Below, piece by piece: positions 1,768-35,349 of a stretch of 50,569 bases of DNA. Both the position numbers and the translations under genes were made by a program. Where the stretch lies: positions 1 through 50,569 of the forward strand of contig DUMW01000058.1 of NCBI GenBank assembly GCA_012839765.1, in the 5' to 3' direction. The notes beneath the pieces are model-generated. The model did no database searches. It was not told where the DNA came from and saw nothing but the letters and a program-made list of their open reading frames with translations. This DNA is from Bacillota bacterium. Its GTDB lineage: Bacteria; Bacillota; Limnochordia; DUMW01. Positions within the stretch are counted from its first letter, which is position 1; the number at the start of each line of letters is the position of its first letter.

Positions 1768-2872
1768 ATGAAATCAAGACACATTATGGCTGTTTTGGTG
1801 GTTCTTCTGACACTTAGTTTTGCCATGAGCAGTGTGGATGCAAAGATCGTGTTTAGCGCACGAAATGATCAGAAGTTGGTGGAGCTCTACAACAAAATCC
1901 TAGATGCGTTCCGGGAGGAATACCCAGAGATAGAGGTAGTATTCGAGCCCTTGTCCGGGTTATGGTATGAGCAGTTTACGATCCGCCTAATGGGCGGTAT
2001 CGCCCCTGATGTTATGGCTTCAATTGTACGGTATCGGGTTCTACGTGACTCCCCGGGCCTGGGTCTACAACGCTGACCTCTTCCAGGAAGCCGGGGTTCC
2101 CTTTCCGGATCTGGAGTTCACTTGGGACGATATTGTTAGTTACGGTACCAAGCTAACCGTCGACAGAACAGGGGACGGAGTGCCGGAAGTCTATGCGGTG
2201 AACAACTATGGGATCGCCACTTGGACTTGGGAGCCGATTTTGGTTTCCTTTGGTGGTTCCATGTTCAATGATTACCTCCGTCCTACTGAGTTCACAATGA
2301 ATCAGCCAGGGGCGATGCGGGGGATGCAGTTCTATGTAGACCTCAGCGTTGTGCACGGGGTTGCTCCTCGTTTGGCTCCAGGCCAGGGACAGAATCTGCT
2401 AAATATTGCCGCAGGCAATGTTGCCATGGCCGGGGAAGGGGCACCACCAACCCTGAAGCCACCGAAATATGACTATGATATCCGGATTATGGCCAGCCCA
2501 TTGGGTCCAAACGGTCGGTATATCCGTGCTGCGTTGGAAGTGCTTTGGATTCCGAGTGTTAGCCAGAACAAAGAGGAAGCTTGGAAGTTGATCGAATTTA
2601 TGGCCGGACCGGTGGCACAACGGATTCTGGCTGAAGAGTACGAAGGGGCACTACCGGTTTCCATTGACACCATCATCGAGTACATGAACCCCGAATGGCC
2701 GATTCATCTCATCTTAGAAGAGTCGACGACCATGACCAGTAGCGCCCCGATGGCCCAAATCGGTCCAATCTTAGAGCGGGAGATCGGGCCCGTTTACTGG
2801 GGCACGGCTAGTCTAGACAGTGTGATTATGAAGGTAAAACCGGCGATCGATGCTATCCTGCAGGGACAGTAA
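1768..2872 (+). pseudogene. Broken ABC transporter sugar-binding protein
   Basis: The first frame (1768-2076) encodes a signal peptide (MKSRHIMAVLVVLL onward) and the N-terminal lobe of a family-1 extracellular solute-binding protein up to GGIAPDVM. The second frame (from about 2009 to 2872) resumes at YGIGFYVTPRAWVYNADLF and runs to the natural C-terminus ending AIDAILQGQ. In intact relatives some 50-70 residues separate these two points, so an internal deletion together with a frame change has removed part of lobe I, including the region leading into the hinge. The start has a good site (AGGGGGAG, 5-6 bases before ATG). The two pieces overlap on the DNA, which argues for deletion rather than a simple one-base frameshift. 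An assembly error is the alternative. Confidence 0.8.
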
Positions 2873-2987
2873 GCTGTAAGAAGAAACCTAGATCCTGAGC
2901 TTTTGCTCTAGATCCAGTGAGACCGGGCAGGGCAGATTTCTCATCGGCAGCTAACTGGGAGTTGGGGCTTTGGGCCGAAGTGCTGTC

Positions 2988-3012
2988 GGTGGGCAGATCT
3001 GCCCACCCTTTT
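2988..3012 (+). terminator. Palindromic terminator candidate
   Basis: GGTGGGCAGATCTGCCCACC is a perfect 20-bp palindrome that folds as an 8-bp stem with a GATC loop. It is followed by CCTTTTC. It sits 115 bases after the solute-binding-protein pseudogene and would end its transcript. Confidence 0.55.
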
Positions 3013-3891
3013 CTGGATGAGTGATCATCATAGACCAGTGGGTTTCTACTTAGCAACTAGATAGAGAAGATGGGGCAGTGTGTTGATAATCAACAGGTGC
3101 TGCTCTTGGCGGTTTCTGGGAGACCGGAATTGGGGTTTCCGTGAGTGGCTACTAGGCCAAGCCCCTGCCGGACTGAATCTATGGGAAAGACGATGCTGAG
3201 CGTGGCTCCACAGGGGGAAGTGGCGCTAATCTGTAATTCGTGGGTCGCAAACAAGGCTCTATGTAGGGTTGTTCTTGGCAGCTAGTGTTCTGGCTTGTTC
3301 AAACGGGCTAGTGCTCTGTCCTTGGACTGCGCGAAGCATTACTGCTTGTCGGCCTTTCGTAACTCCGAAGTGCACAGAGAAACGACAGAGTCCGTTCCAC
3401 AACATTCCAATCCAAAGGATTGAAGGAGCGCGTCAATGCCCTTCTGGCCAGCCACCAGACTCAGAAGGCAGGGTGTCTGGAGTGGAAAACTACCTGTACA
3501 TCGACCAAGACACTGTTTTCAGAACGTGAGAACCGAGTCAACGTACGTTGGGGTAATCGGTAGGCTACTCGTGACAACTGGACCCAGTTCGGGGTATGGC
3601 TGCGAGTTGATCATGTTGTCTTGGAATCGAACGGGGCTTCGACCACCCGGTCTTGATGGGTGTGTGTCATTCACTGGCGAGTATAGACTAACTGGTTAGA
3701 CTTGGGAGAAGGTTTACGCAATTGTGGGTGTCACTGCTCTTCGAAAGTCCATGGATAGTCCGACTCCCATAGTTGCAATAGATTTAACTTGAACCCGATG
3801 GAACTCTGCCCCTTATGCCCGGCAACGAAGTGCATTATAGTTACAGTTTATGTTTGCTGCGAAAGTGATTTAGAGAAATTTTGATTTCCCG

Positions 3892-3951
3892 GGCAGGAAT
3901 ACCCTCTTTGGCGTAGAACAAGTACCATTGAAAACGAATGCGAAAAGGAAA
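3892..3951 (+). promoter_or_regulatory. Operator-like repeat, copy B, upstream of lacI
   Basis: GGCAGGAATA, 11 bases, GTAGAACA, then GAAAACGAATGCGAAAA and GGAAA. The 22 bases of the second part are identical to copy A. Its position about 180 bases before the LacI-type regulator suggests autoregulation. With the preceding T, TGAAAACGAATGCG matches a cre/LacI-type consensus at 11 of 14 positions by my count. Confidence 0.6.
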
Positions 3952-4129
3952 CCATAGGGAGGCGGTATGACTCGGCGGCTTCATGGAGAAGCCCACTAGG
4001 TGCAACAGGGGGCAGGGTCCTTTAGGGCATAAAGGGAATCGTTGGGCGGCACTCCGGATTCATTTGGCTCCTTTGACCTGTCATGGGAAACAGGAGACGC
4101 AAATTCCTTTCATAAAAAAGGGTGATAGT

Positions 4130-5146
4130 TTGGTTACGATTAAGGATGTGGCGCGAGAGGCCAATGTTTCAGCGTCGACGGTATCAAGGGTACTGTCTAA
4201 AAGCGCAAATGTCAGCAAAGAAAAGCGCGAACGGGTTCTCGCAGCCATGAAGAAGCTGGGGTATGTTCCCAATCTTGCTGCCCAGTCTCTGCGCGGCAAC
4301 GGGTCTTTTGTAAACAGCTGGACGAAAGGCATAGGAGTGATCGTGAGCAGCAAGGCGATGGAGATTTCCCCGGAATTCTTTACCCCAATCCTGGAAGGTA
4401 TCCAAATCGAAGCGGAGCAGCAGAACCAAGTCGTGGCGTTTAACCGCAGGATCGATGAGTTTGCCAACAAACCTTCGCTGCTGAACGAGCTGGCACCGGA
4501 AGTGGCTACAGGCCTAGTCTTCGTGGGATGTTCTCCCTATAATGATCAGGTCCTGTCGCAGGTGGTGGACGGGGAAGTTCCCATCGTACTGGTGGAGTTC
4601 ACCTACAAAGGGCTGGATGCGGTGATCGCAGACAAATGGGATGGCATGCGCCAAGCTGTAAACCATCTGGCATCCTTTGGGCATAGGCAAATTGTCTATG
4701 TGGGCCCCGTCGACGAACGGGCCCGAGGTTTCGAAATGGCCCTACAGGAAGCAGAGCTCTGCCGAAGCGGAGACATCATCTTTCCGGCGGAGTTTTCTCT
4801 GCGGGAAGGGTACAGGGCCTGCCGTGAAGTGCTGGGCCGCAGAAGCTTTACCGGGCTGGTTGCCGCTTCGGATGCTATTGCCTTTGGGGCGATCAGGGCC
4901 ATTCATGATGCTGGTCTATCTGTGCCAGAGGATGTCTCGGTGCTGGGTTTTGATGATGTGCCGATGGCGGAGTTCCTTACCCCGCGGCTGACCACTGTTG
5001 CTGTTAATAAGGTGGATATGGGGCGCTATGCTGTCAGGCGGTTGATGGACAGTGCAACTATTGCCGGGCTGGAGTTGTCGGGTACGGTGACCATATGCCC
5101 AGTGGGGTTGGTGGTGAGAGAGTCTACGGGACCGGCGAAAAGCTGA
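4130..5146 (+). CDS. LacI-family transcriptional regulator
   Basis: Starting at TTG gives 338 residues, the usual LacI length, opening with VTIKDVAREANVSASTVSRV, the classic N-terminal helix-turn-helix and hinge. AAGGGTG stands 7 bases before this TTG; an upstream in-frame start at 3983 would add 49 residues unlike the family. The remaining sequence is the periplasmic-binding-protein-like sensor domain, with the family's LGFDDVPMAEFLTPRLTTV segment near the C-terminus. The gene lies between copies B and C of the operator-like repeat and just before two sugar oxidoreductases. It therefore probably represses this locus and responds to a sugar derived from the imported glycan. The effector cannot be read from sequence. 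Confidence 0.93.
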   Translation: MVTIKDVAREANVSASTVSRVLSKSANVSKEKRERVLAAMKKLGYVPNLAAQSLRGNGSFVNSWTKGIGVIVSSKAMEISPEFFTPILEGIQIEAEQQNQVVAFNRRIDEFANKPSLLNELAPEVATGLVFVGCSPYNDQVLSQVVDGEVPIVLVEFTYKGLDAVIADKWDGMRQAVNHLASFGHRQIVYVGPVDERARGFEMALQEAELCRSGDIIFPAEFSLREGYRACREVLGRRSFTGLVAASDAIAFGAIRAIHDAGLSVPEDVSVLGFDDVPMAEFLTPRLTTVAVNKVDMGRYAVRRLMDSATIAGLELSGTVTICPVGLVVRESTGPAKS

Positions 5147-5404: not shown

Positions 5405-6400
5405 ATGTCACTTAACGTGGGTGTTGTTGGTGTAGGTGTGCGGGGCAGGCACAGCCTCGAACAGATGCTAAGAAAAGTAGAAGGAGTACAGATCAGGAGC
5501 CTAAGCATGTACCCGGGTACGCACCCGGTTCTCTTGGAAGGATTTACGGAGGCTAGGGCAAGGGAGTACGCCGCGAATCTAGGTGCTAGCTATCTTGAAG
5601 ACTGGCGCCAAGTGGTGCAAGATCCAGAGGTGGACATCATTAGTGTCATGGTGGAGCCGGCTGCGGCCTATCCGGTAATCATGGAAGCCATCGCTTCGGG
5701 GAAACACGTTCTTTGCGACAAGCCTATGGTGAAAAGTCCCGAAGAGGCTGAAAACATCCGGCGGGCCGTCGCTGAAAGTGGAGTTCAGCTGATGGTGTTT
5801 TTCTGGGCTAGGTACCTTCCTCCGTTTCGAGATCTTAGGAGACAGGTCGCGGAGGGTGTGATCGGTCGGCCGGTTGCTGCGTCAATGGAGTTTATCATGG
5901 GCAATGGACCGTTGGGTGGTTTTACGGCTTCAGCAGAATACCTCCAGGGCTATGGTGGTGGTGAACTGGTCACTTTTGGGTGCTATGGCGTGGACTACCT
6001 GTGTTGGCTGCTGGGTGAACCCCACGCACTGCAGGCTGGGGCCTTTCCATATTTTTATCCTGATTATCAAGCGGTAGGTATGGACTCCCTTGGGTTTGTG
6101 GGGATTGAGTTCAAGGATGGCAGCATCGGGAACCTGACCACGGGTCGGAGTCCTGGTAGCATGGCGATCATCCGCGTGAATGTAACTGGTGAAAGCGGGG
6201 TGCTTCGGGCTGATGTCAATCTAAAGGCACCGGGGCTAGTAAGCGATGCTCAGATGGAAATGATCACAGATTTTGTCTCTAGCATCCGTGGTGAAAAGCC
6301 CGCAGGGGATCTGCCGGGGTGTCAGGATGGCTGCTACAATGCTCGGGTTCTCAGTGCTGCTTATGAGGCGATTGAAAAAGGAAAGACCATATTAATCTAA
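5405..6400 (+). CDS. Gfo/Idh/MocA-family oxidoreductase
   Basis: A 331-residue cytoplasmic NAD(P)-dependent dehydrogenase of the glucose-fructose oxidoreductase / inositol dehydrogenase family. The N-terminal Rossmann fold opens with VGVVGVGVRGRHSL (GxGxxG-like), and GKHVLCDKPM around residue 100 is the family's conserved substrate-site motif with its lysine. The C-terminal half is the usual mixed beta-sheet substrate domain. AAGGTGG stands 7 bases before the ATG. It is followed within 25 bases by a second member of the family, and both lie behind the LacI-type gene. They probably oxidise or epimerise a sugar or sugar acid released from imported glycan. The substrate is not predictable. Confidence 0.9.
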   Translation: MSLNVGVVGVGVRGRHSLEQMLRKVEGVQIRSLSMYPGTHPVLLEGFTEARAREYAANLGASYLEDWRQVVQDPEVDIISVMVEPAAAYPVIMEAIASGKHVLCDKPMVKSPEEAENIRRAVAESGVQLMVFFWARYLPPFRDLRRQVAEGVIGRPVAASMEFIMGNGPLGGFTASAEYLQGYGGGELVTFGCYGVDYLCWLLGEPHALQAGAFPYFYPDYQAVGMDSLGFVGIEFKDGSIGNLTTGRSPGSMAIIRVNVTGESGVLRADVNLKAPGLVSDAQMEMITDFVSSIRGEKPAGDLPGCQDGCYNARVLSAAYEAIEKGKTILI

Positions 6401-6424
6401 CAACCAGTGAGGAGAGAATACAGG

Positions 6425-7444
6425 ATGACCAGATTAGGCATAGCTGTGGTAGGAGCTGGTGGTCATAATATTGCCACGGCCAATCATCTGCCTGCCATTA
6501 AGAAGATACCGGAACTAAACCTTGTTCTGCTTATGGACAAAAACCCAAAGGTAAAAGAATACGCAGAAGAGTACGGTGTCGAATGGACATTGGATTTCGA
6601 CGAAGTCTTGGCGCGGGATGATGTACACATTGTGGACATTTGTTCTCCTGACTGGCTTCACGCGGAACAGACGATCAAGGCTTTGGAGGCAGGTAAGCAC
6701 GTACTGTGTGAAAAGCCCATGGCCTTATCTGTCAGTGATGCCCGGTCTATGGTGGAGGTTGCAGAGAAAAACGGTAGGAAGCTGCAGATCATGGCGAACT
6801 ACCGCTATTACCCCGAGTGGAATTATGTAAAACAGGTGGTGGACTCAGGGCAGCTCGGTAGGCCCAGACATCTAAAATACATCGTTCAGAAGCCGTTCTT
6901 CAGCTATCCTCCGGATAGTCCGTATCGGAAAAAGTGGACTGGTGGTCAGTTCATTCATAATGGGGTGCACTATGTAGATCTCATCTGTTATCTTCTGGGT
7001 TCGCAGCCCACTGACGTGGCCGGCATGAGCCTCTCATATTATCCCACCAGTGACCGGCTAGAGACAGACAACTACGTCCTTTGTTCCATGCTGCTGGAAA
7101 ACGGTGCTTCTGCGGTATGTGAGATGAACCTATGCGTGCAACCGGGTACCCCAGCCTTTGAACGGGTAGTTGTGATCGGTGAAGAGGACAACCTTGACGT
7201 CTCACTCATGGGCAGCTCTTTGTCAGAGTATACCGGTGATGGCTATCGTTCCGTCCCACTACCGCCGAAGGAACACCAGGAACCTATCCGCATCGTGATT
7301 CAGGATTTCGTAGAGAGTATCCTCCACGGCAAGAAGCAGACTATTCCGCCGGATTATTCGCTAAGAATCTTTGAAGGGTGCATGGCGACGCTGCTAGCTG
7401 TGGAAGAACAGCGGACAATGGGGCTCCCGCTAGCGGAAGAGTAA
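6425..7444 (+). CDS. Gfo/Idh/MocA-family oxidoreductase
   Basis: A 339-residue protein starting at the ATG 10 bases after AGGAG; a GTG 18 bases earlier overlaps that site and is unlikely. It opens with LGIAVVGAGGHNIATANHL (dinucleotide fold) and has GKHVLCEKPM, the family's EKP motif, near residue 95. ANYRYYPEW and the histidine-rich FIHNGVHYVDLICYLLG fit the substrate domain. It shares a transcript with the preceding oxidoreductase but is only distantly related to it, so the pair could carry out consecutive steps such as oxidation and reduction during sugar epimerisation. That role is inference. Confidence 0.9.
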   Translation: MTRLGIAVVGAGGHNIATANHLPAIKKIPELNLVLLMDKNPKVKEYAEEYGVEWTLDFDEVLARDDVHIVDICSPDWLHAEQTIKALEAGKHVLCEKPMALSVSDARSMVEVAEKNGRKLQIMANYRYYPEWNYVKQVVDSGQLGRPRHLKYIVQKPFFSYPPDSPYRKKWTGGQFIHNGVHYVDLICYLLGSQPTDVAGMSLSYYPTSDRLETDNYVLCSMLLENGASAVCEMNLCVQPGTPAFERVVVIGEEDNLDVSLMGSSLSEYTGDGYRSVPLPPKEHQEPIRIVIQDFVESILHGKKQTIPPDYSLRIFEGCMATLLAVEEQRTMGLPLAEE

Positions 7445-7812: not shown

Positions 7813-8535
7813 ATGAAAAAGGTTCGTTTCATTCTTGGTGTATCATTGTTGGTAAGCTTGCTCTTGCTTAGCAGTGTGTCTGTTTGCTTGGGCAGTGGGC
7901 CTTTTATTGAACTGTCAGAAGCCACATCCTATGAGGTCTATGAAGGTAGTGCGGGATTCGAGGACGGCAAGTTTGTTATAGTCTCCAAGGACAGTGCTTG
8001 GGACCGGGGGTTTGTTGCAATCCAGGATGGGGTGAAGCTGGGCCAAGAGCTTATGGTGGAGCTTGACATTCAATCAGTAGCTGTCACCTCAATCAACGAC
8101 ATGCCGGAGATGCGCTTTACCTTGTATCTGGTCCCCGAACCTGTTGGGCCGACGGGGAACTGGTGGGAGACAGAGAGGCAGCGAGTTGGTGGCCCCAATT
8201 ACACCGGTGAGTATCTGGCGGCCTTTCTTGAGATAAACCAAACTGCTAATGTGGTTAGTTTGCAGTTACTGCATAAGGCGAAGGATCAGGAATTCCGCGG
8301 CAGTGTGCTGTTCCGTCAGGACTTCCCCTTTACCGGTGCTTTTCCTGGTTATCTCCGCCTGGTTATAGATGCTTACAGTTTCAACATGCTTTACTCCGAT
8401 CGGGTAGACGTTACCCGGGATCACCGGTCGAGCATCATGGATTGGGAAGAAGTGTTCTTGGTCTTAGAAGTTCAGAATGTAGATGACAACCGAGGCGGTA
8501 TCACTTTGGATTCTCTGAGGGCGATGAGCTATTAG
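7813..8535 (+). CDS. Secreted jelly-roll-like protein of unknown function
   Basis: 240 residues with a clear signal peptide (MKKVRFILGVSLLVSLLLLS, cleavage expected near CLGSG) and then an all-beta protein. GAAGGAG precedes the ATG. It is a paralogue of the next gene: both share a YEV-x(2)-G opening, an RFT-(L/M)-YL segment, a VGG-x(3)-TGEYL block, an LEI...LLHKA/VWHKA segment, and a DWE-x-(F)-x-(I/V)LEVQNV ending. The pattern resembles concanavalin/LamG-like sugar-binding folds, but I do not recognise a named family. Export and position in a sugar locus suggest glycan binding at or outside the membrane. The function is unproven. Confidence 0.8.
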   Translation: MKKVRFILGVSLLVSLLLLSSVSVCLGSGPFIELSEATSYEVYEGSAGFEDGKFVIVSKDSAWDRGFVAIQDGVKLGQELMVELDIQSVAVTSINDMPEMRFTLYLVPEPVGPTGNWWETERQRVGGPNYTGEYLAAFLEINQTANVVSLQLLHKAKDQEFRGSVLFRQDFPFTGAFPGYLRLVIDAYSFNMLYSDRVDVTRDHRSSIMDWEEVFLVLEVQNVDDNRGGITLDSLRAMSY

Positions 8536-8612: not shown

Positions 8613-9329
8613 ATGTCCCTAAGAAGAGTCCTCTGCTTAACGCTGAGTACGGTGCTACTCTTAGCGGCTGGGTGCTTTACTATTGGGCCGGGTGATGTGG
8701 ACGAAATCGACCCGATGCCCTATGAGGTTTTGGATGGTACCGTTGTAGTTGAGAATGGGCGCTTATCCATTACGGCGAACGACCAATCCTGGGCAAGGGG
8801 GGTCCTGTATTTTACGGAGCCCATCCTGTTTGAACAAGATCAGTACACTATCGAGGTGGAATTTGACACTCCGGATATTGTGAAAAGAGACCCTGGGGTC
8901 GACATCCGCTTTACGATGTACCTAGCCCCCATCGCCCCGGACGAAAACAAGGACGGGTGCTGGTATAACCCCGAGGATGGCCGAGTGGGAGGGCAGTGGT
9001 ATACGGGAGAATACCTGTCGGTGTACCTCGAAATCGACAGTACTAATGACAAAGTGCTTATCCAAGTGTGGCACAAGGCGGAAAACGCTCAACCCAAAGG
9101 CCGCATGGTCGCTCAGAGGGAAATGAAACTTAGTACTGGATTTCCTGCAAAGATGACTGTGCAATTTGACAATGAGAACTTCCAGATGCTGTTTGGCAGC
9201 GTTGCACCTTGCAACGAGCAGCACGGTGCTGGTGTTTCCGACTGGGAGCAGTTCTATATTGTCTTAGAGGTTCAGAATGTGAACGCTAACCTTGGTACTA
9301 TCAACATTAATTCAATCGAAGTCGAGTAG
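8613..9329 (+). CDS. Lipoprotein paralogue of the preceding secreted protein
   Basis: 238 residues. AAGGAGG lies about 11 bases before the ATG. The leader ends in LLAAGC, a lipobox, so the mature protein is a lipid-anchored form of the same all-beta fold as its neighbour at 7813. Shared blocks are the RFTMYLAP segment, the RVGG-x(3)-TGEYLSVYLEID segment and the ending DWEQFYIVLEVQNVN. It stops 6 bases before the start of the large lipoprotein gene, implying translational coupling. A soluble plus a lipid-anchored copy of one binding fold could pass glycan from the medium to the membrane; that is inference. Confidence 0.8.
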   Translation: MSLRRVLCLTLSTVLLLAAGCFTIGPGDVDEIDPMPYEVLDGTVVVENGRLSITANDQSWARGVLYFTEPILFEQDQYTIEVEFDTPDIVKRDPGVDIRFTMYLAPIAPDENKDGCWYNPEDGRVGGQWYTGEYLSVYLEIDSTNDKVLIQVWHKAENAQPKGRMVAQREMKLSTGFPAKMTVQFDNENFQMLFGSVAPCNEQHGAGVSDWEQFYIVLEVQNVNANLGTININSIEVE

Positions 9330-9335
9330 GCAGTG

Positions 9336-12056
9336 ATGGATCTATCGTTCAAGAAGAGGTGCTTAATTGTGGCATATATGCATATCGCCTTGATTATGGT
9401 TTTGATCTTGTTGTTGATGGTGGCTGGGTGCTCTGCGGCCCCCGCTAGCATTCTTCTCCTAGATACCTTTTCTGAGGTTAGAGAGTCACAAGGAATAAGG
9501 CACACCATCGCCGAGGTGATCTCTAAGCAGTCCGGAGAGGTGGGGGGAACCGTAGGCATGGATGTAGAGCTGGTACACGGCGAATCGCCGTTATACCCTG
9601 GTGTTAGGTCTGTAAGTTCTTCGGGCAGGGTTACCTACCCTGCCCTGGGGAACATATCCCTGGAGCAGGGGACTGTCGAAGTATGGGTTACTACACTTCC
9701 GGGATTCCGTGGCCGCAGCCAATACCTGTTTCGACTCCGGGTTGACCAGAACAACGGCCTGGGGTTGTATTATAACGGCAATGAGCGGGCGATCGTCGCT
9801 TGGATCACCAACGACACACCAGATAAGAACGCGGCCAATAACGAATTCAGGACGTTCATGGTTAGTAATATCTTGGATTGGAAAGAAAACGAACAGCATC
9901 ACGTTTGTGTAACGTGGAGCAATGGTCACCAGATACTGTATCTGGATGGTGTCCCAGTCCGATGGCAGGAGTTCAACGGTGAAATCGGTGGCACTCTCAA
10001 TGACCGTTCAGTGATTGAAATTGGAGAGTCCACTGGCATGGTGATAAACGCAGTGCGGGTTTGGGATCAGCCGCGGTCACCACGGTTCATCCATGAAGTG
10101 CCCACCGTGTCCGATCAAGAGGAGCAGTTCCTCTTCCCTGTCCGGGTAGGCCTTGAGGATGATGAACTGGGTGAACTCGGAGAAGAAGAGTTGGCCACAG
10201 ATTTGTACAGGATGCGCATCGACAAGGAGAGCGGACTCCCTGCATCCCTAATTCATAGACAGGCGAAGGTGGATCTTCTGTTTCAACCAGTGCGGTTGGT
10301 TCTATCTGGCCAGGAGGTAGACGTACGGGCCCGGGAGTACCAAAAACAAGAAGATGCGCTGGTGGTTGTCCAGGAAATCCAGCAACATCCAGAATTGAAA
10401 GTGACAAGCCGGTATCAGACTTTTGGGGACTATGTGGAGTGGAAGGTGAGCATCAGGAATACCGGGGAGGAAGACTGGCGCGGCGACGTTGGTGTCAATT
10501 TCCCCGCTGTTAGCCCTGACGATATGGCTTTCCTTGCCGCAGATGATAATCCATTTCCGGCGCGTAACGGGATGGCCCAGTATGGTGGCGATCGAAGCCG
10601 GATCCAGGGCTGGACTGGTTATGCAAATACCTACCTGCCGTTGTCTGCGGTGTATCATGGGGAGCGGGATTATGGGCTGACCGTGTGCCAGCCGCCAGAT
10701 ACTTTAGGGCTCATCCGCTTTGATTTTGGATCAGAAGTGCCCCTGGGTATAATGGGCATCACCAACTACGATCTTACGATCAAGGCCGGGCAAGAGCAGA
10801 CTATTACTTACTATCTTGTGCTCCATGAAGGTGACTGGCGGCCGGTACTAAAATGGATGGTGCAGAGGTTCCCAGAGGTCTTTGTCAGCCCTCATGAGAA
10901 GAACCCGTTGGATGGTCCCATGATTGTAGGAGGACCGTCAGATTTCTACTTCCTTACGGAACTGGAAAACTTCGGGATTGTCTACCGGCAGATGGGCACA
11001 ACCGACGGGAACGAACTCTTTTTCGGACGGTATGTACCTGAAGACCCCAGCCCCAACGTCCTGAAGTTCTATGAAGGGCTCAGTGCCCAAATCGAGAGTG
11101 CTGAGCACCACGGCATCAAAGGATTGCTGTATATTAACGCTAGGGAATGTCAGAGCCTCCCGTTGGCCAAAGAACGGTTTGCTGACTCACTGCAGTACAC
11201 TGTTGACGGGGCTATTCTGGAAAGCTACAGTTTTGGTGCCAAGATGACCTGCCGCCCGGGATCCAGTTGGTTTAACCATATGCTCCAACAGGCGGAGGCC
11301 CTCTTAGATGCAGTTCCCAACGCGCATGGGATCCAGTTCGACAATAGCTGGGAGAAAGAATATGCGGAGATAATCCACGCGGTGTCTGAATTGGTGCGCT
11401 CTAGGGGGCTGGTGATTGCTTCCAATGGTGCCTCTTCCAACTCTGCTGGAGCAGTGGACTCCATTATGGCTGAGGGGACGCGCCGGTCCCTAGGCGGCAT
11501 GCAGTATCTTTGTTTGGAAAAGCCGATGACCTATCTGCCGCTTTATCTGAACCACGCCTTAGGTCTCAGTGAGCGAGAACTGGCGGCACCGGCCTTGATC
11601 GAGAACCTTGAGCAGGATATCAAAGGGTGCCTGCTTGCGAAAGCTTTCTATAGCCTGAACTATCGCGGGCTTAGGAAGTTCGACAACGAAGGGATCAACC
11701 TCCTGCTCCACTATGTGCCGCTCAGGGAACCTATGTATGGGGCGAAGTGGTACTTAGAGGCTCATGCGTTGGTTACACCAGAGGACATCGATGGGAATAT
11801 ATTCCAGACCGCTGATGGTGGCTTTGTCATCTACTTGGTCTCCTGGGAGGGGATGCCCTTCAAGGCAGAGCCCAAGGACCCATTCAAGATAGCGGCCAAC
11901 CTCAAAGGATTTGAGGTGACCCGGGTGCTGCAGAGGCACATCGAGGATAGTACCGAGGTTGAGGTGAGCTTTTCTGCCATGGGACCTAGTCTAGAGGTGG
12001 AGGTTAATGGCCATCGATCCATCACTATGCTCCGGATCGAGGGGAATTGGCAGTAG
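9336..12056 (+). CDS. Large lipoprotein: LamG domain plus putative TIM-barrel glycoside hydrolase
   Basis: 906 residues. The leader ends LLLMVAGC (lipid-anchored Cys about residue 32). Residues about 55-245 look like a LamG/concanavalin domain (LEQGTVEVWV, HHVCVTWSNGHQILYLDGVPV). Residues about 270-510 are beta-rich, like the beta-sandwich that precedes catalytic barrels in several hydrolase families. Residues about 525-800 look like a TIM barrel: GIKGLLYINARECQ, VDGAILESYSFG, HGIQFDNSWEKEY (Asp669), and GLVIASNGASSNS, with acidic residues at strand ends. A small beta domain closes the protein. I do not recognise the family. The ATG follows an in-frame GTG and has a poor ribosome binding site, so translation is probably coupled to the gene before it. 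Confidence 0.75.
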   Translation: MDLSFKKRCLIVAYMHIALIMVLILLLMVAGCSAAPASILLLDTFSEVRESQGIRHTIAEVISKQSGEVGGTVGMDVELVHGESPLYPGVRSVSSSGRVTYPALGNISLEQGTVEVWVTTLPGFRGRSQYLFRLRVDQNNGLGLYYNGNERAIVAWITNDTPDKNAANNEFRTFMVSNILDWKENEQHHVCVTWSNGHQILYLDGVPVRWQEFNGEIGGTLNDRSVIEIGESTGMVINAVRVWDQPRSPRFIHEVPTVSDQEEQFLFPVRVGLEDDELGELGEEELATDLYRMRIDKESGLPASLIHRQAKVDLLFQPVRLVLSGQEVDVRAREYQKQEDALVVVQEIQQHPELKVTSRYQTFGDYVEWKVSIRNTGEEDWRGDVGVNFPAVSPDDMAFLAADDNPFPARNGMAQYGGDRSRIQGWTGYANTYLPLSAVYHGERDYGLTVCQPPDTLGLIRFDFGSEVPLGIMGITNYDLTIKAGQEQTITYYLVLHEGDWRPVLKWMVQRFPEVFVSPHEKNPLDGPMIVGGPSDFYFLTELENFGIVYRQMGTTDGNELFFGRYVPEDPSPNVLKFYEGLSAQIESAEHHGIKGLLYINARECQSLPLAKERFADSLQYTVDGAILESYSFGAKMTCRPGSSWFNHMLQQAEALLDAVPNAHGIQFDNSWEKEYAEIIHAVSELVRSRGLVIASNGASSNSAGAVDSIMAEGTRRSLGGMQYLCLEKPMTYLPLYLNHALGLSERELAAPALIENLEQDIKGCLLAKAFYSLNYRGLRKFDNEGINLLLHYVPLREPMYGAKWYLEAHALVTPEDIDGNIFQTADGGFVIYLVSWEGMPFKAEPKDPFKIAANLKGFEVTRVLQRHIEDSTEVEVSFSAMGPSLEVEVNGHRSITMLRIEGNWQ

Positions 12057-12220: not shown

Positions 12221-13528
12221 ATGGTAATGGCAGGAAACAGACTTCGGTTGTGGGTTACAGCAATCTGTTTGACCATGCTGATTGTGGTGGGTGCAGGCCT
12301 TACCGCTACTGGTGCACCGCAGAGGGTCGAACTGTTGTACCCCGCTGGTAACTGGCGGATTGCTTGGGAAGCATTAGCGGAGGCGTTCAATGCATCACAA
12401 GATGAATACGTTGTTGTACTGAAAGCCCAGTCGTCGCCCAGTGAGTTCATGGTTAGAACTGTGTCTGGTGCGCCTCCTGACCTAGTTCATATGCACAGGA
12501 GTGATACGGCCCATATCTTAAACGGACTTCTTGAGCCCATCGGAGGACTGATTGAACGAGACGGTTTTGACTTGGGACAGATGTTTCCAATTGTTCTCGA
12601 CGTTTCCTATCAATCAGGTGCCATGGCAGGGGGGGACCTCTATGATCTGCCCTTTGCGTGGGGAGCTGTTGTGTTCGGCTACATCAGTACGTTTTTTGAT
12701 GAAGCTGGGTTGGAGTATCCGTCCAATGATTGGACCTGGGATGACGTGGAGAGTTATGCGTCTAAACTAACCCTAGTACAGCAATCCGGATTCAGCATCC
12801 TGCCACAGCGCTTTGGACTGTGGTTTTCTGCAGCTGGTCCATGGACCTGGCCGCCCTTGGTCGAAGGATGGGGTGGTATGCTTTATGATGAACGGATATT
12901 CCCGAAAGAGACCTTGCTTCACGAGCCGGAAGCCATCGCGGCACTGGAGTTTATGGCAGATCTTATCACCGTAAGGAGGACTGTTGTGCCTACAGACCAG
13001 CTCGAAGCCTTTTCATTCAAGACGGGCAAGAGTGCAATGGCGGAGCTGGCGCCTTCCCATATTGGAGATGTCCGGGAAAGCTTAGGAGCAATGAATCTGG
13101 AATGGCAGCTTGTGGCCTATCCTTCCGGTCCGGTGCGCCAGACCACTCGCCTTTTCACGGAAAACTTAGCCATACCCCGGAATGCACGCAACGTGGAGGG
13201 GGCGTGGGCATTTATGAAGTTTGTCTGCGGGCCAGAAGGCCAAAAGATCCTGGGAACAGTGACCGGAATCCCAGTGAACATTGAAGCGGCTGCCAGTAGC
13301 TTCGTCGATCCGAACACTCCCCAGCATGAAGAACTATATCTCCATGCGTCGGAATATGCCCACAGTTTCTACTTCCTGGTGGATCAAGCTGCGGTACAGT
13401 CCATGCTAGAAAAGGAATTTGGACCGGTCTGGAACGGTAGGCGCTCAGTACAGGAGGCTGTGGAAATGGTTAAGCCAGCCATTGACGCCAAGCTACAGGC
13501 TGATTATGCGGCGCTGTTCGGCAACTAG
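12221..13528 (+). CDS. ABC transporter sugar-binding protein
   Basis: 435 residues of the family-1 extracellular solute-binding type. A signal peptide (RLRLWVTAICLTMLIVVGAG) is followed by a mature start near ATGAPQRVELLYPAG. SGAPPDLVHMHRSD and DLPFAWGAVVFGYIS mark the first lobe and hinge, and the C-terminus (VQEAVEMVKPAIDAKLQ) is typical. AGGAGG lies about 11 bases before the ATG; a second ATG two codons later is an alternative. It closes the left sugar locus and has no permease or ATPase genes beside it, so it must dock on a transporter encoded elsewhere. It is a distant relative of the broken gene at 1768 and of the gene at 41159. Confidence 0.9.
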   Translation: MVMAGNRLRLWVTAICLTMLIVVGAGLTATGAPQRVELLYPAGNWRIAWEALAEAFNASQDEYVVVLKAQSSPSEFMVRTVSGAPPDLVHMHRSDTAHILNGLLEPIGGLIERDGFDLGQMFPIVLDVSYQSGAMAGGDLYDLPFAWGAVVFGYISTFFDEAGLEYPSNDWTWDDVESYASKLTLVQQSGFSILPQRFGLWFSAAGPWTWPPLVEGWGGMLYDERIFPKETLLHEPEAIAALEFMADLITVRRTVVPTDQLEAFSFKTGKSAMAELAPSHIGDVRESLGAMNLEWQLVAYPSGPVRQTTRLFTENLAIPRNARNVEGAWAFMKFVCGPEGQKILGTVTGIPVNIEAAASSFVDPNTPQHEELYLHASEYAHSFYFLVDQAAVQSMLEKEFGPVWNGRRSVQEAVEMVKPAIDAKLQADYAALFGN

Positions 13529-13558
13529 TAATTACCTCTACTAATGCTCGTCGCAAGA

Positions 13559-13590
13559 TGTGATGCCTGGCCGGTAGGCCAGGCATCACA
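13559..13590 (+). terminator. Strong stem-loop terminator of the left sugar locus
   Basis: TGTGATGCCTGGCC pairs perfectly with GGCCAGGCATCACA (14 bp) around a GGTA loop, 30 bases after the solute-binding-protein stop. Only TGTGTTCCCTT follows, so it lacks a clean T-run but is the longest perfect stem in the window. Confidence 0.7.
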
Positions 13591-14774
13591 TGTGTTCCCT
13601 TGCACAAGAAATGCCCTCCGCCCTGTCTATCCTGTTGATACCTCCGTTCAACCCCCCACGCCATTGTTCCGGGAGGTTCCAGGCTATGAAGGTGAGCCAT
13701 ACCAGCAAGTTCCCCGAGTGGTACGTCATGTCTAAGGAGACATGATAATCTTTCTGCAGGACCTTGGCCATTTCCAAGGGACTCTTGATGGGAACAATGG
13801 GTACTACCATCAGATACCGCAAAGCGACCAGTGGAAGGAACCGGACGTTGAGGCCAAGGTAGGTATATGTGGGCACGAAGAGGTTTGACCTTATGGAACG
13901 CACAAGTATGCTTCTCTCGAAGAAGAGTGTATCGGGCAGGGATCATCTTAGCGGCGATTTCGCAGGAACGACACTGTCAAGAACCGGAATTGTGCACCTA
14001 GACGCAGCTGTTCAAAGCCAAGAGAAACCATTGTCTTTGCTGAGTTTAGACTAGAACCTCGTGTCGAAAAACCTCGGATTATGCGGGAAGTAACAGAAAA
14101 TTACGTTAGAGAAAGGATTATGGAGGAAGTCGGCTCTAGATGAGAAAAACGGAAGAGTTTAGGGTTTGTCTATGTAGACGGTACTATAGTAAACTTAGCT
14201 TGCACTAGAAAGTCTTTCCGCACCGGTATGAGTTTGGCAGATGCCTCCCAAGCGTCCCTCGAGACAAAAGACCATATTATCCAATGCTTCGTAATATGGA
14301 TGCAATGCAGCAGGGTACCGACTGACTTGTGATGGAAGGGCTTTTTTGGGCGGCCGCTTTTCCGAAACGCCGGGTCTCCCTTGTTAACAATGAGCTATGT
14401 CGCCCAAGTGATAGACGCGCTCTTTCTCCTAAAGGTTGCAGGGTGTGCGGGTGGGAAACGGTCATTGGAGGGAAGGGGCCGGCGTGGATAGCTTTGTGGG
14501 CCATTTGTGTGTCCGGTAGAAATGTTCCGGGGGTAGCAAGGTAGGGAGCTGAACAGGCAATTCTAGAGGCTTGCCTATTCATCCTTCCAGCAGCTTAGAG
14601 TCGGGATTTGTCCCCTATCAGTAGGTCCCGACGTCTATGAGTGCGGGGATGAGTTCAATGACGGATCATTGCCATTCCGTTCGGAAGTATTTCCGGGCCT
14701 GTATACCGGTGGCGAAATTAAGACGACAGTCAGCAGATCGTTTTCTTGTAAATATCTAACTTGCGTGTGAAAAC

Positions 14775-14803
14775 TTGACTGAAATATAAGTTTTGGGTAT
14801 AAT
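14775..14803 (+). promoter_or_regulatory. codY: SigmaA promoter of codY
   Basis: TTGACT, a 17-base spacer and TATAAT, about 100 bases before the codY start. A loose match to the CodY box (ACTTGACTGAAATAT, about 10 of 15 positions) overlaps the -35 element, so weak autorepression is conceivable but not established. Confidence 0.85.
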
Positions 14804-14905
14804 TCTCTCTAGTACCGTAGTTTGTACTTCTTGGCGATGGTCGCCAGTTTTCTGCATATTGATAATGGGTAGGAATAATAACACAGGTAGAAAGGAAGTT
14901 GAAAT

Positions 14906-31212: not shown

Positions 31213-32883
31213 GTGAAATACGTGAAGGATTACTTGATTCTACTTGTTCTCCTGACTTGCTTGCTAGCCCTGGGGGCAGTGACCTTTGCCCAGGAAACTG
31301 CACCTATCGTTAGAAAGATTACCATTACGGGGAATGAGTATGTCAGTACCGACTACATTGAACAGCTAATAATCTATACCAAAATTGGACAACCCGTTGA
31401 TACGGAAAAGCTGACCCAGGATCTGGACAATATCGCCCAGTCGGGTCCCATCTACTATGTGGCCGTGGACAGTAGGCCCTATCAGGATGGCATCGAGCTC
31501 ATTTTTGAGATTACCGAGAATCCAGTGGTGGAGAGTGTTGAGATCCTTGGTTTGCTTCACTTGGATCCGGCCACGGTCCGGCGTTACATTTCCCAGCAGG
31601 ACGGTGCCGTACTGAATGCCCGCCGCTTGGACAACGATATCTGGTTGGCAGTACAAAAAGTCCAGGACGAGCATGGGTACCTGATCCAACCCCACAGTCT
31701 GCAGTTTACCGAAGAAGGCGTCCTGCAGATTGTGTATCGGGAGTTGGTTTACGGTGAGATTATTATCGAAGGTAACGAGAAGACCAAGGAAAACGTCATT
31801 CGGCGGGAGTTGCTCATGCAACCCGGCGAACCTATTCGTTTAGAGCCGTTACGCCAAACCCTTGGAAAACTGATGATGCTGGGGCACTTCCAGGAGATCG
31901 AACCTTCCCTGGAGGAGACCAATGAACCCCATGTGGTGAATTTGAGGTTGAAGGTGACAGAGCGCCAGACCGGTCTGGCTAACTTCGGTACAGGCTACAG
32001 CAAGCTGGACGGTCTTGTCGGCCTTATCCAGGTCCAGGACACCAACTTCCGTGGTACAGGCAATACCATCGATATCAAATGGGAATTTGGTAAGAAGAAG
32101 ACATCCTATGATATCGGCTTGGAATTCCCCTATCTTGGGGACAGCCCCACCTCCTTGGGCCTTAGTGCGTACAACCGCACAGTGACCAGAACCTATGATG
32201 ATGTACCAGCGACCGATCATCGGATGGGTGGCGATGTGACCCTCGGACGGCGGCTGGGCTTGTTTAGTCATATCTTTACGCGCCTGAAGATTGAAGATAT
32301 TAACGTGGTCAGTGAAGACGAGACGATAAATGATGACAAGAAGCTGCGGAGTCTGTCTTTGATCGCCCAGACCGATTCTCGCAACCACCCCTTCTATCCC
32401 AGCGAAGGGTGGGCTGGTTTTGTCAGTGTGGAAGTGGCGGGTCGGTTCCTGGGTGGGGATCTGGACTTTACCACCTACCGGGGTAGTGCCAGCAAATACT
32501 TCCAGCTAGGAGAGACAAACAAGCATACCATCGCTTTGCGGGTGGATGCGGGGGTACAGACCGGTGAGGTGCCATCCTATGAACTGTTCCGGGTAGGCGG
32601 TACCGGGTCGTTGCGGGGCTATAACTATGCCCAGTTCCGTGGGGAGAAGATGCTCACCACCAGTGCCGAATACCGTCTGAAGCTAACCGATACCGTTCAG
32701 GGATTGGTCTTCGTAGACTTGGGCAATGCCTGGGACCAGAATACCCCCATTTCTCTAAAGGACCTGAAGGTGGGTTACGGGATCGGTGTTCGCATCGATA
32801 CACCCCTCGGTGTGATGGGTCTGGGTTATGGCATCGGTGAAGAGGGCGGGAAGACCTACTTCACCATCGGAGAGCAGTTCTAA
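31213..32883 (+). CDS. bamA: Outer-membrane protein assembly factor BamA (Omp85 family)
   Basis: 556 residues from GTG behind GAAGGGGG. A signal peptide (YLILLVLLTCLLALGAVTFA) is followed by three POTRA domains (about 30-103, 104-175, 176-250; for example VRKITITGNEYVSTDYIEQL and GEIIIEGNEKTKENVIRREL). The 16-strand barrel follows, with VGGTGSLRGYNYAQFRGE (the Omp85 [V/I]RGY-type motif) and a C-terminal Phe. Proteobacterial BamA has five POTRAs; fewer are usual in diderm Bacillota. It folds beta-barrel proteins into the outer membrane. Together with ompH, lpxD and lptF it shows that the cell has a lipopolysaccharide-type outer membrane. Confidence 0.95.
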   Translation: MKYVKDYLILLVLLTCLLALGAVTFAQETAPIVRKITITGNEYVSTDYIEQLIIYTKIGQPVDTEKLTQDLDNIAQSGPIYYVAVDSRPYQDGIELIFEITENPVVESVEILGLLHLDPATVRRYISQQDGAVLNARRLDNDIWLAVQKVQDEHGYLIQPHSLQFTEEGVLQIVYRELVYGEIIIEGNEKTKENVIRRELLMQPGEPIRLEPLRQTLGKLMMLGHFQEIEPSLEETNEPHVVNLRLKVTERQTGLANFGTGYSKLDGLVGLIQVQDTNFRGTGNTIDIKWEFGKKKTSYDIGLEFPYLGDSPTSLGLSAYNRTVTRTYDDVPATDHRMGGDVTLGRRLGLFSHIFTRLKIEDINVVSEDETINDDKKLRSLSLIAQTDSRNHPFYPSEGWAGFVSVEVAGRFLGGDLDFTTYRGSASKYFQLGETNKHTIALRVDAGVQTGEVPSYELFRVGGTGSLRGYNYAQFRGEKMLTTSAEYRLKLTDTVQGLVFVDLGNAWDQNTPISLKDLKVGYGIGVRIDTPLGVMGLGYGIGEEGGKTYFTIGEQF

Positions 32884-32903
32884 TAATCAGTAGAAATACT
32901 GAG

Positions 32904-32929
32904 AAGGACGCACGCCAAGCTGCGTCCTT
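32904..32929 (+). terminator. Stem-loop between bamA and ompH
   Basis: AAGGACGCA pairs perfectly with TGCGTCCTT around an 8-base loop, 21 bases after bamA. Without a T-run it probably tunes the relative amounts of bamA and ompH messages and does not fully end transcription. Confidence 0.55.
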
Positions 32930-32955
32930 ACAATCATAATTTAAGGAGAACGACT

Positions 32956-33489
32956 ATGCAAAGAAGACACAAGAATTACTTGGTTGTAACAGTTGCTTTG
33001 ACTTTCATGCTCGGTTTGGTTTTGGCGGCAGGACAACGCGGTGTTCTGCGCGCTACCCAGCAGAGTACCGTGGGGTATGTGGACACTGAATTTATCTATT
33101 ATGCTTATGTGCAGCCTGCCTTAGGGCAGCGTTTGGTGGAAGTAGGTCTGGACGCCGAACTACAAGCCAAGTTGGAGGAATTCCAGAAGGAACTGGATAA
33201 AGAGCTGGCGGAGCTTGAGGCCAATGACGGCCTGTCGGAGACGGTCAAGTGGCGGTTGGCCCAGGCCATTCAGGCGGAGTATCAGGTCCAGTTGGATGCT
33301 AGTCAGCGGGCTTTGACTGCAGAGGTAGAAGACGAAGTCTACAACGAACTGATCCAGGCCATTTACAAAGTGGCCGCCGCCGAGAAGGTTGATTTGGTGC
33401 TCAACGGACAGGTTGTCCTGGTTGGTGGTGTGGATCTGACGGTGAAGGTCCTAGCGGAATTGGGCGTAGATTTGAGCAGCTATTATTGA
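32956..33489 (+). CDS. ompH: OmpH/Skp-family periplasmic chaperone
   Basis: 177 residues with an N-terminal signal (YLVVTVALTFMLGLVLAAG), a short beta segment (STVGYVDTEFIYYAY), a long charged coiled-coil region (about residues 60-135, LEEFQKELDKELAELEAN onward), and a terminal beta segment (VDLVLNGQVVLVGGVDLT). That is the jellyfish-like Skp architecture, where the helices grip unfolded barrel proteins. AAGGAGAA precedes the ATG. The order bamA-ompH-lpxD is the same as in Proteobacteria and in the outer-membrane clusters of diderm Bacillota, where the products deliver barrels to BamA. Confidence 0.92.
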   Translation: MQRRHKNYLVVTVALTFMLGLVLAAGQRGVLRATQQSTVGYVDTEFIYYAYVQPALGQRLVEVGLDAELQAKLEEFQKELDKELAELEANDGLSETVKWRLAQAIQAEYQVQLDASQRALTAEVEDEVYNELIQAIYKVAAAEKVDLVLNGQVVLVGGVDLTVKVLAELGVDLSSYY

Positions 33490-33521
33490 TCGACCTTGGG
33501 GAATAGCGGAGGTGAGCCCCG

Positions 33522-34592
33522 ATGAGTACAGGGCATAAGTTAGGGGAACTTGCCCGGATGGTTGCCGGCACCCTGTGTGGTGACCCTGATCTAGTGATTA
33601 AGGGTATCAGGGGATACCAAACTGCTGGCCCCGAGGAGATTACCTTTGCCGCCGATAAGAAAGTCTTGGCCAAGGTCGCGGAGGAGAGCAATGCCGGAGC
33701 GGTGATTGTCCCCGCCGACGGTTCCTTGGATAAGCCCCACATCAAGGTAGCCAATCCTAGGTTGGCCTTTGCGCAGCTTCTGGCGGTCTTTGCGCCCCAG
33801 TATCCCCGTCCGGTGGGCGTTCATCCCACCGCGGTGGTTGGTGCTGATGTGGAGCTGGGTGCCGACTGCAGTATTGGTGCCCATGTGGTGATTGAGGATG
33901 GAGCCAAGTTGGGGAATCGGGTGACCCTCTATCCCGGAGTGTATGTGGGCCATGATGTGGCTATCGGTGATGATTGTACCCTTTATCCTAATGTTGTGAT
34001 CATGGCCGGCTGCGTGCTGGGAAACCGAGTAGTTATTCACGCAGGAACGGTTATCGGTAGCGACGGTTTCGGATATGTCCAGGAGGCTTCGGGGCATACC
34101 AAGGTACCCCAAATCGGCAATGTGATCATTAGCGACGATGTGGAGATAGGGGCGAACGTCACTGTGGACCGTGCCACCTGTGATAGCACCATCATCGGGC
34201 GGGGGACGAAGATTGATAATCTGGTCCAGCTCGGTCACAATGTGGTCATCGGAGAAAACTGTTTATTGGTGTCCATGGTGGGTATCGCCGGTAGTACCGA
34301 GGTCGGTGATAATGTGGTCATCGCCGGACAGGCTGGTGCGGTGGGCCACATCCAAATTGGTTCCGGCAGTCGTATTCTTGCCCGGGCCATGGTGACCAAT
34401 GATCTTCCGCCTGGCTCCCTGGTGTCCGGAGCGCCGGCCCAGCGCCATCAGGACGCACTTCGGATTACCGCGGCCACCCGTCGCTTGCCGGAGTTGCTCA
34501 GTACAGTGAAGGAGCTTGGCCGGAGGATTGAGGAACTGGAAAAGAATCTTGATTCCGTAGTTCGGAGGAGTGGTTCTGGTGCGACGGATTGA
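33522..34592 (+). CDS. lpxD: UDP-3-O-acylglucosamine N-acyltransferase (lipid A synthesis)
   Basis: 356 residues. An N-terminal uridine-binding domain ([17 protein letters not shown]) is followed by a left-handed beta helix of hexapeptide repeats (about 100-300). [15 protein letters not shown] contains the catalytic His, and [21 protein letters not shown] is the conserved LpxD loop. A C-terminal helix-rich end ([21 protein letters not shown]) completes the family pattern. It adds the second 3-hydroxyacyl chain, amide-linked, in the third step of lipid A synthesis. CGGAGGTGA precedes the ATG. The other lpx genes are not in the window. Confidence 0.96.
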
Positions 34593-35199
34593 TTGGGTTT
34601 TGAGCGGACTTGTGGTTTGTCTCGTTTGCCTTTTTCCGGTGTTGGGTGCCGCCAATGGCATCCTGGTAAACGTGCCAACGGCAGACCTGACCAAGGATGG
34701 ACGCCTGGTTTTTGGCTTTCAAGATATTGACAACAGAGGTGAAGGGGAGGTTTCCTGGGGCATCTCGCCGGAGGTGGCGGCGAAGCTTTCTGTGACCAAG
34801 CTGGATGGGAAAGCGGGGAAATTCGACGCTGGGGTGAAGGTGCAGCTACTAAAAGAGAGCGTCGATTACCCAGCGGTGAGTTTTGAGATTGCGGGTAACA
34901 GCAAATACCTGGTGGCGAGCAAATCCCTGGGGGTACGGGCTCCAAGGATTCACGCCGGGATCGGCCAGGGCCGTGTTAATGGTGTATTTGTGGGTTTGTC
35001 CTATGTGGTCAATCCCGTTACCATCTCATCGGGAACCAAGTCCTGGTCCGTGCCTGTGGCGATGGTGATGGGTGAGTTTGACGGTAAACACCTCAATGCG
35101 GGAATAAGATTAGCCTTTTCACCTCGCTTTGACTTAGACTTGTACCTGGTTGATATGGAAGAACTGGGTTGGGGTGTGAAGTTCAACACGCAGTTTTGA
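34579..35199 (+). CDS. Unknown exported protein, probable outer-membrane beta-barrel
   Basis: 206 residues from a GTG 8 bases after GGAGGAG, overlapping the end of lpxD by 14 bases; a GTG nine bases earlier lies inside that site. A signal peptide ([20 protein letters not shown]) is followed by a sequence of alternating polar and hydrophobic residues in short strands separated by Gly/Asn/Asp turns (SVSWGIS-, AAKLSVTKL-, HAGIGQG-type segments; [21 protein letters not shown] near the end). It finishes NTQF, with the C-terminal Phe used as a barrel-assembly signal. I recognise no family. Coupling to lpxD and the following LPS-export permease suggest a role in the outer membrane. Confidence 0.75.
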
Positions 35200-35206
35200 C
35201 GACGAA

Positions 35207-35277
35207 GACCTAGTCTCCCCGGATCCCTTTTCCTGTGTTGCTGGTGGGATGATCCGGGGGACTAGGTCCCTTTCTTT
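35207..35277 (+). terminator. Strong terminator after the lpxD operon
   Basis: GACCTAGTCTCCCCGGATC pairs with GATCCGGGGGACTAGGTC (18 bp, one bulged T) around a 25-base loop and is followed by CCTTTCTTTT. It should end the envelope transcript before lptF. Confidence 0.85.
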
Positions 35278-35349
35278 TATTGATGGGGGCTTCCCCAACG
35301 GGGTAAGCTAGAGAGAGGTATCTAGAGAGATGTAAGGACGTGGGTTGGT

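Follow-up and report, generated by a model that had tools for sequence, protein, structure and literature searches.

Organization of the locus

The window, i.e., the whole stretch of 50,569 nucleotides that was analyzed (contig DUMW01000058.1 of a Bacillota bacterium), holds the gene studied here (hereafter the family gene) within a series of genes on the forward strand, in the following order:

3983..5146 (+): LacI-type regulator (PF00356, E 1.1e-20; PF13377, E 2.2e-31)
5405..6400 (+): Gfo/Idh/MocA oxidoreductase 1 (PF01408, E 5.6e-20)
6407..7444 (+): Gfo/Idh/MocA oxidoreductase 2 (PF01408, E 1.4e-27)
7813..8535 (+): secreted beta protein, lipoprotein-like, without Pfam or NCBIfam match (signal peptide recognized by eye)
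8613..9329 (+): beta lipoprotein resembling the 7813-8535 protein by eye, without Pfam match over the cut-off
9336..12056 (+): family gene (open reading frame list and sequence; a GTG start at 9333 is also possible)
12221..13528 (+): sugar ABC solute-binding protein (PF01547, E 7.3e-21)

The frame is open over exactly the coordinates given in the initial annotation and encodes 906 amino acids from the ATG at 9336 to the stop codon at 12054-12056. The alternative GTG start at 9333, three bases past the point where the upstream lipoprotein gene stops, would give 907 amino acids. Residues are numbered from the ATG unless the GTG is named (which adds one), and position 1 of the structural model discussed below is residue 265 in the GTG count. 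The gene can be divided as follows:

9420..9431 (+): lipobox VAGC (VAGC/SAAP), predicted lipidated Cys at 9429-9431 (direct reading of the sequence)
9621..10085 (+): LamG/concanavalin-A-like domain, residues 97-251 from the GTG (PF13385, E 1.2e-9)
10185..10835 (+): predicted mutarotase-like beta-supersandwich, about residues 285-501 (AlphaFold2 model; VIA-align to 3mwx)
10917..11760 (+): predicted barrel domain, roughly residues 529-809 with approximate boundaries (AlphaFold2 model, second half poor; GH66 profile match)
11340..11342 (+): Asp669 (670 from the GTG), predicted nucleophile (invariant in 32/32; aligned with the GH66 catalytic Asp; follows model strand 402-405)
11424..11426 (+): Asn697 (698 from the GTG), invariant residue of a putative active-site strand (32/32; aligned with an Asn within the NAVNNWP segment of a GH66 protein)
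11472..11474 (+): Glu713 (714 from the GTG), predicted acid/base (32/32; aligned with the Glu of YIEVWPP in GH66; follows model strand 446-449)
11790..12053 (+): predicted C-terminal beta domain (AlphaFold2 model, strands 555-642)

Bacterial lipoproteins carry a lipobox of the pattern [LVI][ASTVI][GAS]C. The VAGC of the window protein, preceded by a hydrophobic stretch, agrees with it, and lipidation is predicted, as the initial annotation had proposed. The LamG domain that it had also named is clearly present, with 38.9 bits for PF13385 against a curated cut-off of 27.6. This was the sole Pfam match of the protein at E<=1, so that none falls over the barrel, while NCBIfam returned nothing meaningful (best 0.12) and a PDB sequence search no match (best 0.24). 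The initial annotation had recognized no CAZy family, and no known GH profile in these libraries matches the catalytic part. At the level of sequence families, the family is absent from Pfam-A, NCBIfam, and the PDB, and it is relative to these three libraries that we call it undescribed.

The gene had also been placed in a sugar locus, which is correct for the immediate operon with its LacI regulator, two Gfo/Idh/MocA enzymes, and solute-binding protein, but not for the xylan-type genes of the window. The GH43, GH88, GH115, and GH2 genes are separated from it by about 25 kb that include housekeeping genes, which indicates a separate operon, and a role in glucuronoxylan use by proximity was rejected. 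That region also encodes three secreted proteins of the 3-keto-disaccharide hydrolase type (PF06439; 45418-46107, 48420-49094, and 49210-49998), which adjoin the GH115 and GH2 genes with GH43/GH88 nearby, so that xylan-type genes are densely packed here and the locus has an oxidative flavor.

Several other features of the window were noted. A solute-binding protein gene at 1768-2872 apparently falls into two frames that overlap (1768-2076 and 2009-2872). The match of the latter frame to SBP_bac_1 begins only at profile position 105, and the gene may therefore be frameshifted; a solute-binding protein gene near a short relative of the family (L037:8774-9994, near L036) likewise lies in two frames. 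The stretches 2873-3982 and 13529-14905, which follow the two solute-binding protein genes of the window, hold no open reading frames of coding length, and no ABC permease genes were seen beside these two genes. At 31213-36468, BamA-like, OmpH-like, LpxD-like, and LptF/G-like genes were recognized by eye, which are signs of an outer membrane.

Relatives and distribution

Members of the family were found in Bacillota, Planctomycetota, and Verrucomicrobiota. The 32 distinct sequences share 16-37% identity with the window protein (the set used for the tree and for hhalign has 33 rows, as L010 and L052 are duplicates). The window's own genome (G000, 2.56 Mb) encodes a full-length paralog (L002, 26% identity) and the shorter relative L036. 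A six-row core profile matched 4 of the 299 genomes from the window's phylum at E<=1e-3, the two strong ones being the own genome and G143. The same profile matched 9 of the 199 genomes from the phylum of the Phycisphaerae metagenome-assembled genome (MAG); seven of these matches have E values of 1e-14 or lower, and two are weak. With a 17-row profile, 50 of the 288 genomes in the phylum of the Verrucomicrobiota MAG matched, 16 below 1e-79 and 34 weakly and partially. A scan of genome contigs gave four loci, and scans of viral contigs and of plasmids gave no relatives and no match, respectively.

In the tree of the 33 rows, the window protein groups with the three Planctomycetota sequences L027, L019, and L008 (support 99), and the paralog L002 is the sister of this clade (support 99). 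All four clade members carry a LamG domain (E 1.2e-9, 7.5e-6, 3.9e-7, and 2.7e-5; two of these matches fall just short of the curated threshold), whereas no Pfam domain was detected in L002. The Phycisphaerae relative L008 apparently has an in-frame pectate-lyase-like repeat domain after the family domain (2451-3080); PF12708 was matched in 1 of 19 scanned members (E 4.1e-7), and its assignment to L008 was made by eye. In two genomes, two adjacent copies of the family occur in one locus (L047 and L148).

Predicted structure

A model of residues 265-907 was generated with AlphaFold2 from five sequences (pLDDT 63.9, pTM 0.44; a run without alignment gave a pLDDT of 33.9). Its quality differs by region: in 10-residue blocks, the supersandwich mostly reaches 72-92 and the first half of the barrel 59-90, whereas the second half of the barrel reaches 31-47. 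With this reservation about the barrel, both the beta-sandwich and the TIM-barrel-like region of the initial annotation appear in the model. The supersandwich assignment is firmly supported by VIA-align, which superposes this part of the model on the galactose mutarotase 3mwx with a Z of 17.6 (rmsd 2.8, 206 aligned residues).

Foldseek comparison of the model with the PDB returned long alignments over both domains to FpGalNase (5.6e-17), ZgGH129 (2.3e-15), the GH36 enzyme AgaA (2.8e-15), GH101 (2.8e-15), a GH66 endodextranase (4.3e-12), GH97 (9.5e-11), and GH31 (3.5e-10), in lists that do not exclude families missing from them. The top rows have TM-scores of only 0.22-0.30 over the whole length, and rmsd values are high, as would be expected from a poor prediction of domain orientation and of half of the barrel; VIA-align to FpGalNase gave a Z of 18.1 over 434 residues with an rmsd of 25.8. 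The early guess of an alpha-galactosidase-type architecture is nevertheless well matched by the modeled fold, with GH36, GH129, GH101, GH31, and GH97 all among the hits. FpGalNase is described as consisting of an N-domain, a GH36 domain, and a C-domain, and its D463A variant as nearly inactive (PMC11762096).

In the model, Asp669 follows strand 402-405 and Glu713 follows strand 446-449; a single strand, 430-434, whose last residue is Asn697, lies between these two. GH27 and GH31 enzymes are reported to have their nucleophile Asp on strand 4 and their proton donor on strand 6 (PMC1249566), and the single intervening strand in the model would match this spacing.

The predicted active site and its link to GH66

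Five columns are invariant in the 32 distinct sequences, namely a Pro, a Gly, Asp669 (in FDN), Asn697, and Glu713 (in MAEG), corresponding to model positions P172, G402, D406, N434, and E450. The initial annotation had singled out Asp669 and had made its reading depend on a barrel and an acidic pair; a barrel is indeed predicted, and the invariant partner of Asp669 is Glu713, which had not been named. The immediate surroundings of the pair vary (FDNSW, WDWAG, FDELH).

When the family was aligned profile to profile (hhalign) with a set of eight GH66 proteins of the window's phylum, the probability was 96.9 and the E 1.6e-10 over 366 columns covering the barrel and the C-terminal domain. This alignment pairs GIQFDN with GIHMDQ, ASN with VNN, and IMAEGT with VYIEVW (window and GH66 protein, respectively), so that Asp meets Asp, Asn meets Asn, and Glu meets Glu. 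Eight unrelated control sets built from neighboring genes and treated by the same procedure (GH31, AP_endonuc_2, GH2, GH115, GH94, Gfo/Idh/MocA, GH43, and GH88) gave E values of 0.09-0.55, where the GH31 set (0.33) consisted of two sequences only. Other barrels scored as well, namely one DUF6259 protein (L033, 5.6e-9), two GHL-type barrels (about 1e-6), and a GH129 set (1.8e-6). Matches in the range of 1e-6 to 1e-10 are thus common to GH66, DUF6259, and GHL-type barrels, among which GH66 ranks first without being unique. The initial impression that the barrel motifs differ from those of the alpha-galactosidase-type clans is borne out by this closest profile relationship.

In an alignment of the GH66 protein with GH66 enzymes of solved structure, the Asp column is Ala in the cycloisomaltooligosaccharide glucanotransferases (CITases) 3wnl and 3wnp and Gly in the dextranase 5axh (titled as a D312G mutant), which fits a catalytic role of the GH66 Asp. 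The GH66 Glu that aligns with Glu713 is presumably the acid/base. In direct searches of the PDB, the 17-row profile matched GH66 CITases (1.2e-3), the GH13 enzyme Amy10 (3.8e-4), and the GH31 enzyme YihQ (0.04), with the GH66 and GH13 alignments both running through the catalytic Asp. Since the 6-row and 32-row profiles gave no GH66 match in the PDB, it is mainly the profile-profile comparison that connects the family to GH66 by sequence.

Proposed function

Taken together, the open frame, the lipobox, the LamG domain, the invariant Asp/Asn/Glu, the profile kinship with GH66, the structural similarity to the alpha-galactosidase superfamily, and the partly conserved neighborhood lead us to infer catalysis, retention, alpha specificity, carbohydrate binding, and an order of pathway steps. 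The protein thus probably represents an unclassified family of cell-envelope-anchored, retaining alpha-glycoside hydrolases that combines the supersandwich of the alpha-galactosidase superfamily with an Asp/Glu pair of the GH66 type. The LamG domain would probably hold the glycan, and the mutarotase-like supersandwich together with the (beta/alpha)8 barrel behind it would make up the catalytic unit. The nucleophile would be Asp669, where strand 4 ends, and the general acid/base would be Glu713, where strand 6 ends, an arrangement that would imply retaining double-displacement cleavage of an alpha-glycosidic bond. The products could then be imported via the solute-binding protein, and the pair of Gfo/Idh/MocA enzymes, controlled by LacI, could oxidize them in the cytoplasm. 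The Gfo/Idh/MocA family is associated with 3-keto chemistry, and this family as well as the 3keto-disac_hyd domains elsewhere in the window may hint at such chemistry here.

Some of this context recurs in relatives. The contig of the paralog L002 repeats the order MocA1, MocA2, family gene, LacI, with a MocA2 copy that is 75% identical. In G391, a genome of the Planctomycetota, one locus contains, in order, LacI, the family gene, MocA2-like, MocA1-like, GH31, LamG, GH94, and a further gene that was judged AP_endonuc_2-like by eye, and a second contains MocA, AP_endonuc_2, MocA, AP_endonuc_2, a 225-aa open reading frame, GH31, LamG, and the family gene. Among the eight MocA2 matches in G391, the best is the copy directly after the family gene. 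Over 30 loci, 14 Gfo/Idh/MocA genes lie near the family, against 4.6 expected from genome densities. Since four loci of two genomes account for 8 of these 14, no such gene occurs in 20 of the 30 loci, and the family gene of L155 was dropped by the ORF caller, we regard the linkage as suggestive, and only so for the LamG clade together with its sister.

Both GH31 proteins of G391 have 4xpo as by far their best PDB match (1.3e-137 and 2e-135), which is described as PsGal31A, a GH31 alpha-galactosidase (PMC9491548). As these alpha-galactosidase-like genes share loci with the family gene, an alpha-galactoside-type substrate is our best single guess, albeit a doubtful one. The substrates put forward initially (glucuronoxylan, arabinogalactan, and pectin) found no direct support, and the context of the relatives points, weakly, to alpha-galactoside-type sugars instead.

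Several other explanations have to be weighed against a new family of retaining alpha-glycosidases. The protein could be an ordinary member of a CAZy family that is described but lacks representation in Pfam, NCBIfam, and the PDB; the deep-sea protein DSSM_1 indicates that related architectures have already been seen (PMC11087588), yet the catalytic part has no family-level match in the 2025 Pfam, 2026 NCBIfam, or 2026 PDB sequences, and we regard this explanation as rather unlikely. That the protein is a non-catalytic or degenerate glycan-binding scaffold would agree with the variable residues around the pair, the LamG domain, and the two adjoining beta lipoprotein-like genes. However, Asp669, Asn697, and Glu713 are kept in 32/32 sequences across three phyla, a conservation that would be unusual for a pseudo-enzyme and makes a scaffold improbable.

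Other alternatives accept catalysis and change its outcome. The GH66 chains of the PDB matched by the 17-row profile are CITases, so the enzyme might mainly be a transglycosylase that remodels or cyclizes oligosaccharides at the surface, but GH66 dextranases (8iu9 and 5axh) are close by fold and no gene of the locus points to cyclic products, which leaves little to recommend this idea. Some GH97 enzymes invert, and an inverting one (3wfa) is among the fold matches, so that inversion, or cleavage of a beta-linked sugar despite the alpha-type relatives, was also considered; the alignment of Asp669 with the nucleophiles of GH66 and GH13 fits retention and renders this variant quite unlikely.

The retaining alpha-glycoside hydrolase thus remains the preferred reading. 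If the family is active, it would add a GH family that spans at least three phyla and is unnamed in general libraries, provide 32 sequences with two pinpointed predicted catalytic residues that are ready to be tested, and connect GH66 with the alpha-galactosidase superfamily. A more ambitious proposal, which we put forward tentatively and at somewhat less than even confidence, is that the family founds a new GH group bridging GH66, whose Asp/Asn/Glu set it would share, and GH31/36/97/101/129, from which it would have the supersandwich architecture, and that its LamG clade feeds a Gfo/Idh/MocA (possibly 3-keto-sugar) pathway; an extracellular retaining glycosidase would then be genetically coupled to oxidative sugar breakdown.

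Comparison with known families

In the literature covered on DUF6259/GHL6, GH66, and GH129/GH101/GH36, we recognized no description of the family. For DUF6259 (PF19773), the literature search returned no paper, and we know of no function. One member of it (L033) is similar by hhalign as mentioned above, whereas the window protein has no PF19773 match. GHL6 (PF14871) was rejected as an assignment, as two distant relatives match it below the cut-off (L004, 0.01; L024, 3.7e-5) and the window protein does not match. GH129 was likewise rejected as the closest kin, because the profile alignment leaves Glu713 and the GH129 residue that we take to be the relevant Glu unpaired. There is also no PF11308 match, and the hhalign score is weaker than that of GH66. 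GH101 also has no Pfam match in the window protein, and its D764 and E796 (from entry titles) are 32 residues apart as opposed to 44 for Asp669 and Glu713. DSSM_1, which came up in a GH123 domain search, is described as a beta-sandwich with a GH66-like (beta/alpha)8 barrel and as having no significant PDB BLAST match (PMC11087588); the likeness is one of described architecture, and the window protein has no GH123 domain match.

With GH66 (PF13199), the family shares the alignable barrel and C-terminal domain and the coinciding Asp, Asn, and Glu. The Asp nucleophile that ends the DG..D strand of GH66 aligns with Asp669, but the DQ.G motif is missing and the window protein has FDNSW. The Glu of Y.E.WPP aligns with Glu713, while the flanking Tyr and Trp are missing. 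PF13199 has no match in the window protein (E<=1) or anywhere in G000, where L036 reaches 0.011, below the cut-off. GH66 enzymes have an Ig-like domain before the barrel, whereas the family has a mutarotase-like supersandwich there, to which the window protein adds a lipid anchor and the LamG domain.

With the alpha-galactosidase superfamily (GH36/GH27/GH31, GH97, GH101, and GH129), the model shares the order of supersandwich, barrel, and C-terminal beta domain (Foldseek 1e-17 to 1e-9), and an Asp that follows a strand compatible with being strand 4; the N-terminal mutarotase-like supersandwich is a likeness to GH31 and GH36 in particular. The window protein differs from GH27, GH36, and GH31 in having no Pfam match (Melibiase, Glyco_hydro_31) and in carrying Glu713 at the predicted place of the strand 6 proton donor, which is an Asp in GH27/31/36 (GH-D and GH31). 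We consider the family to be an unclassified branch of the barrel hydrolases that act on alpha-linkages.
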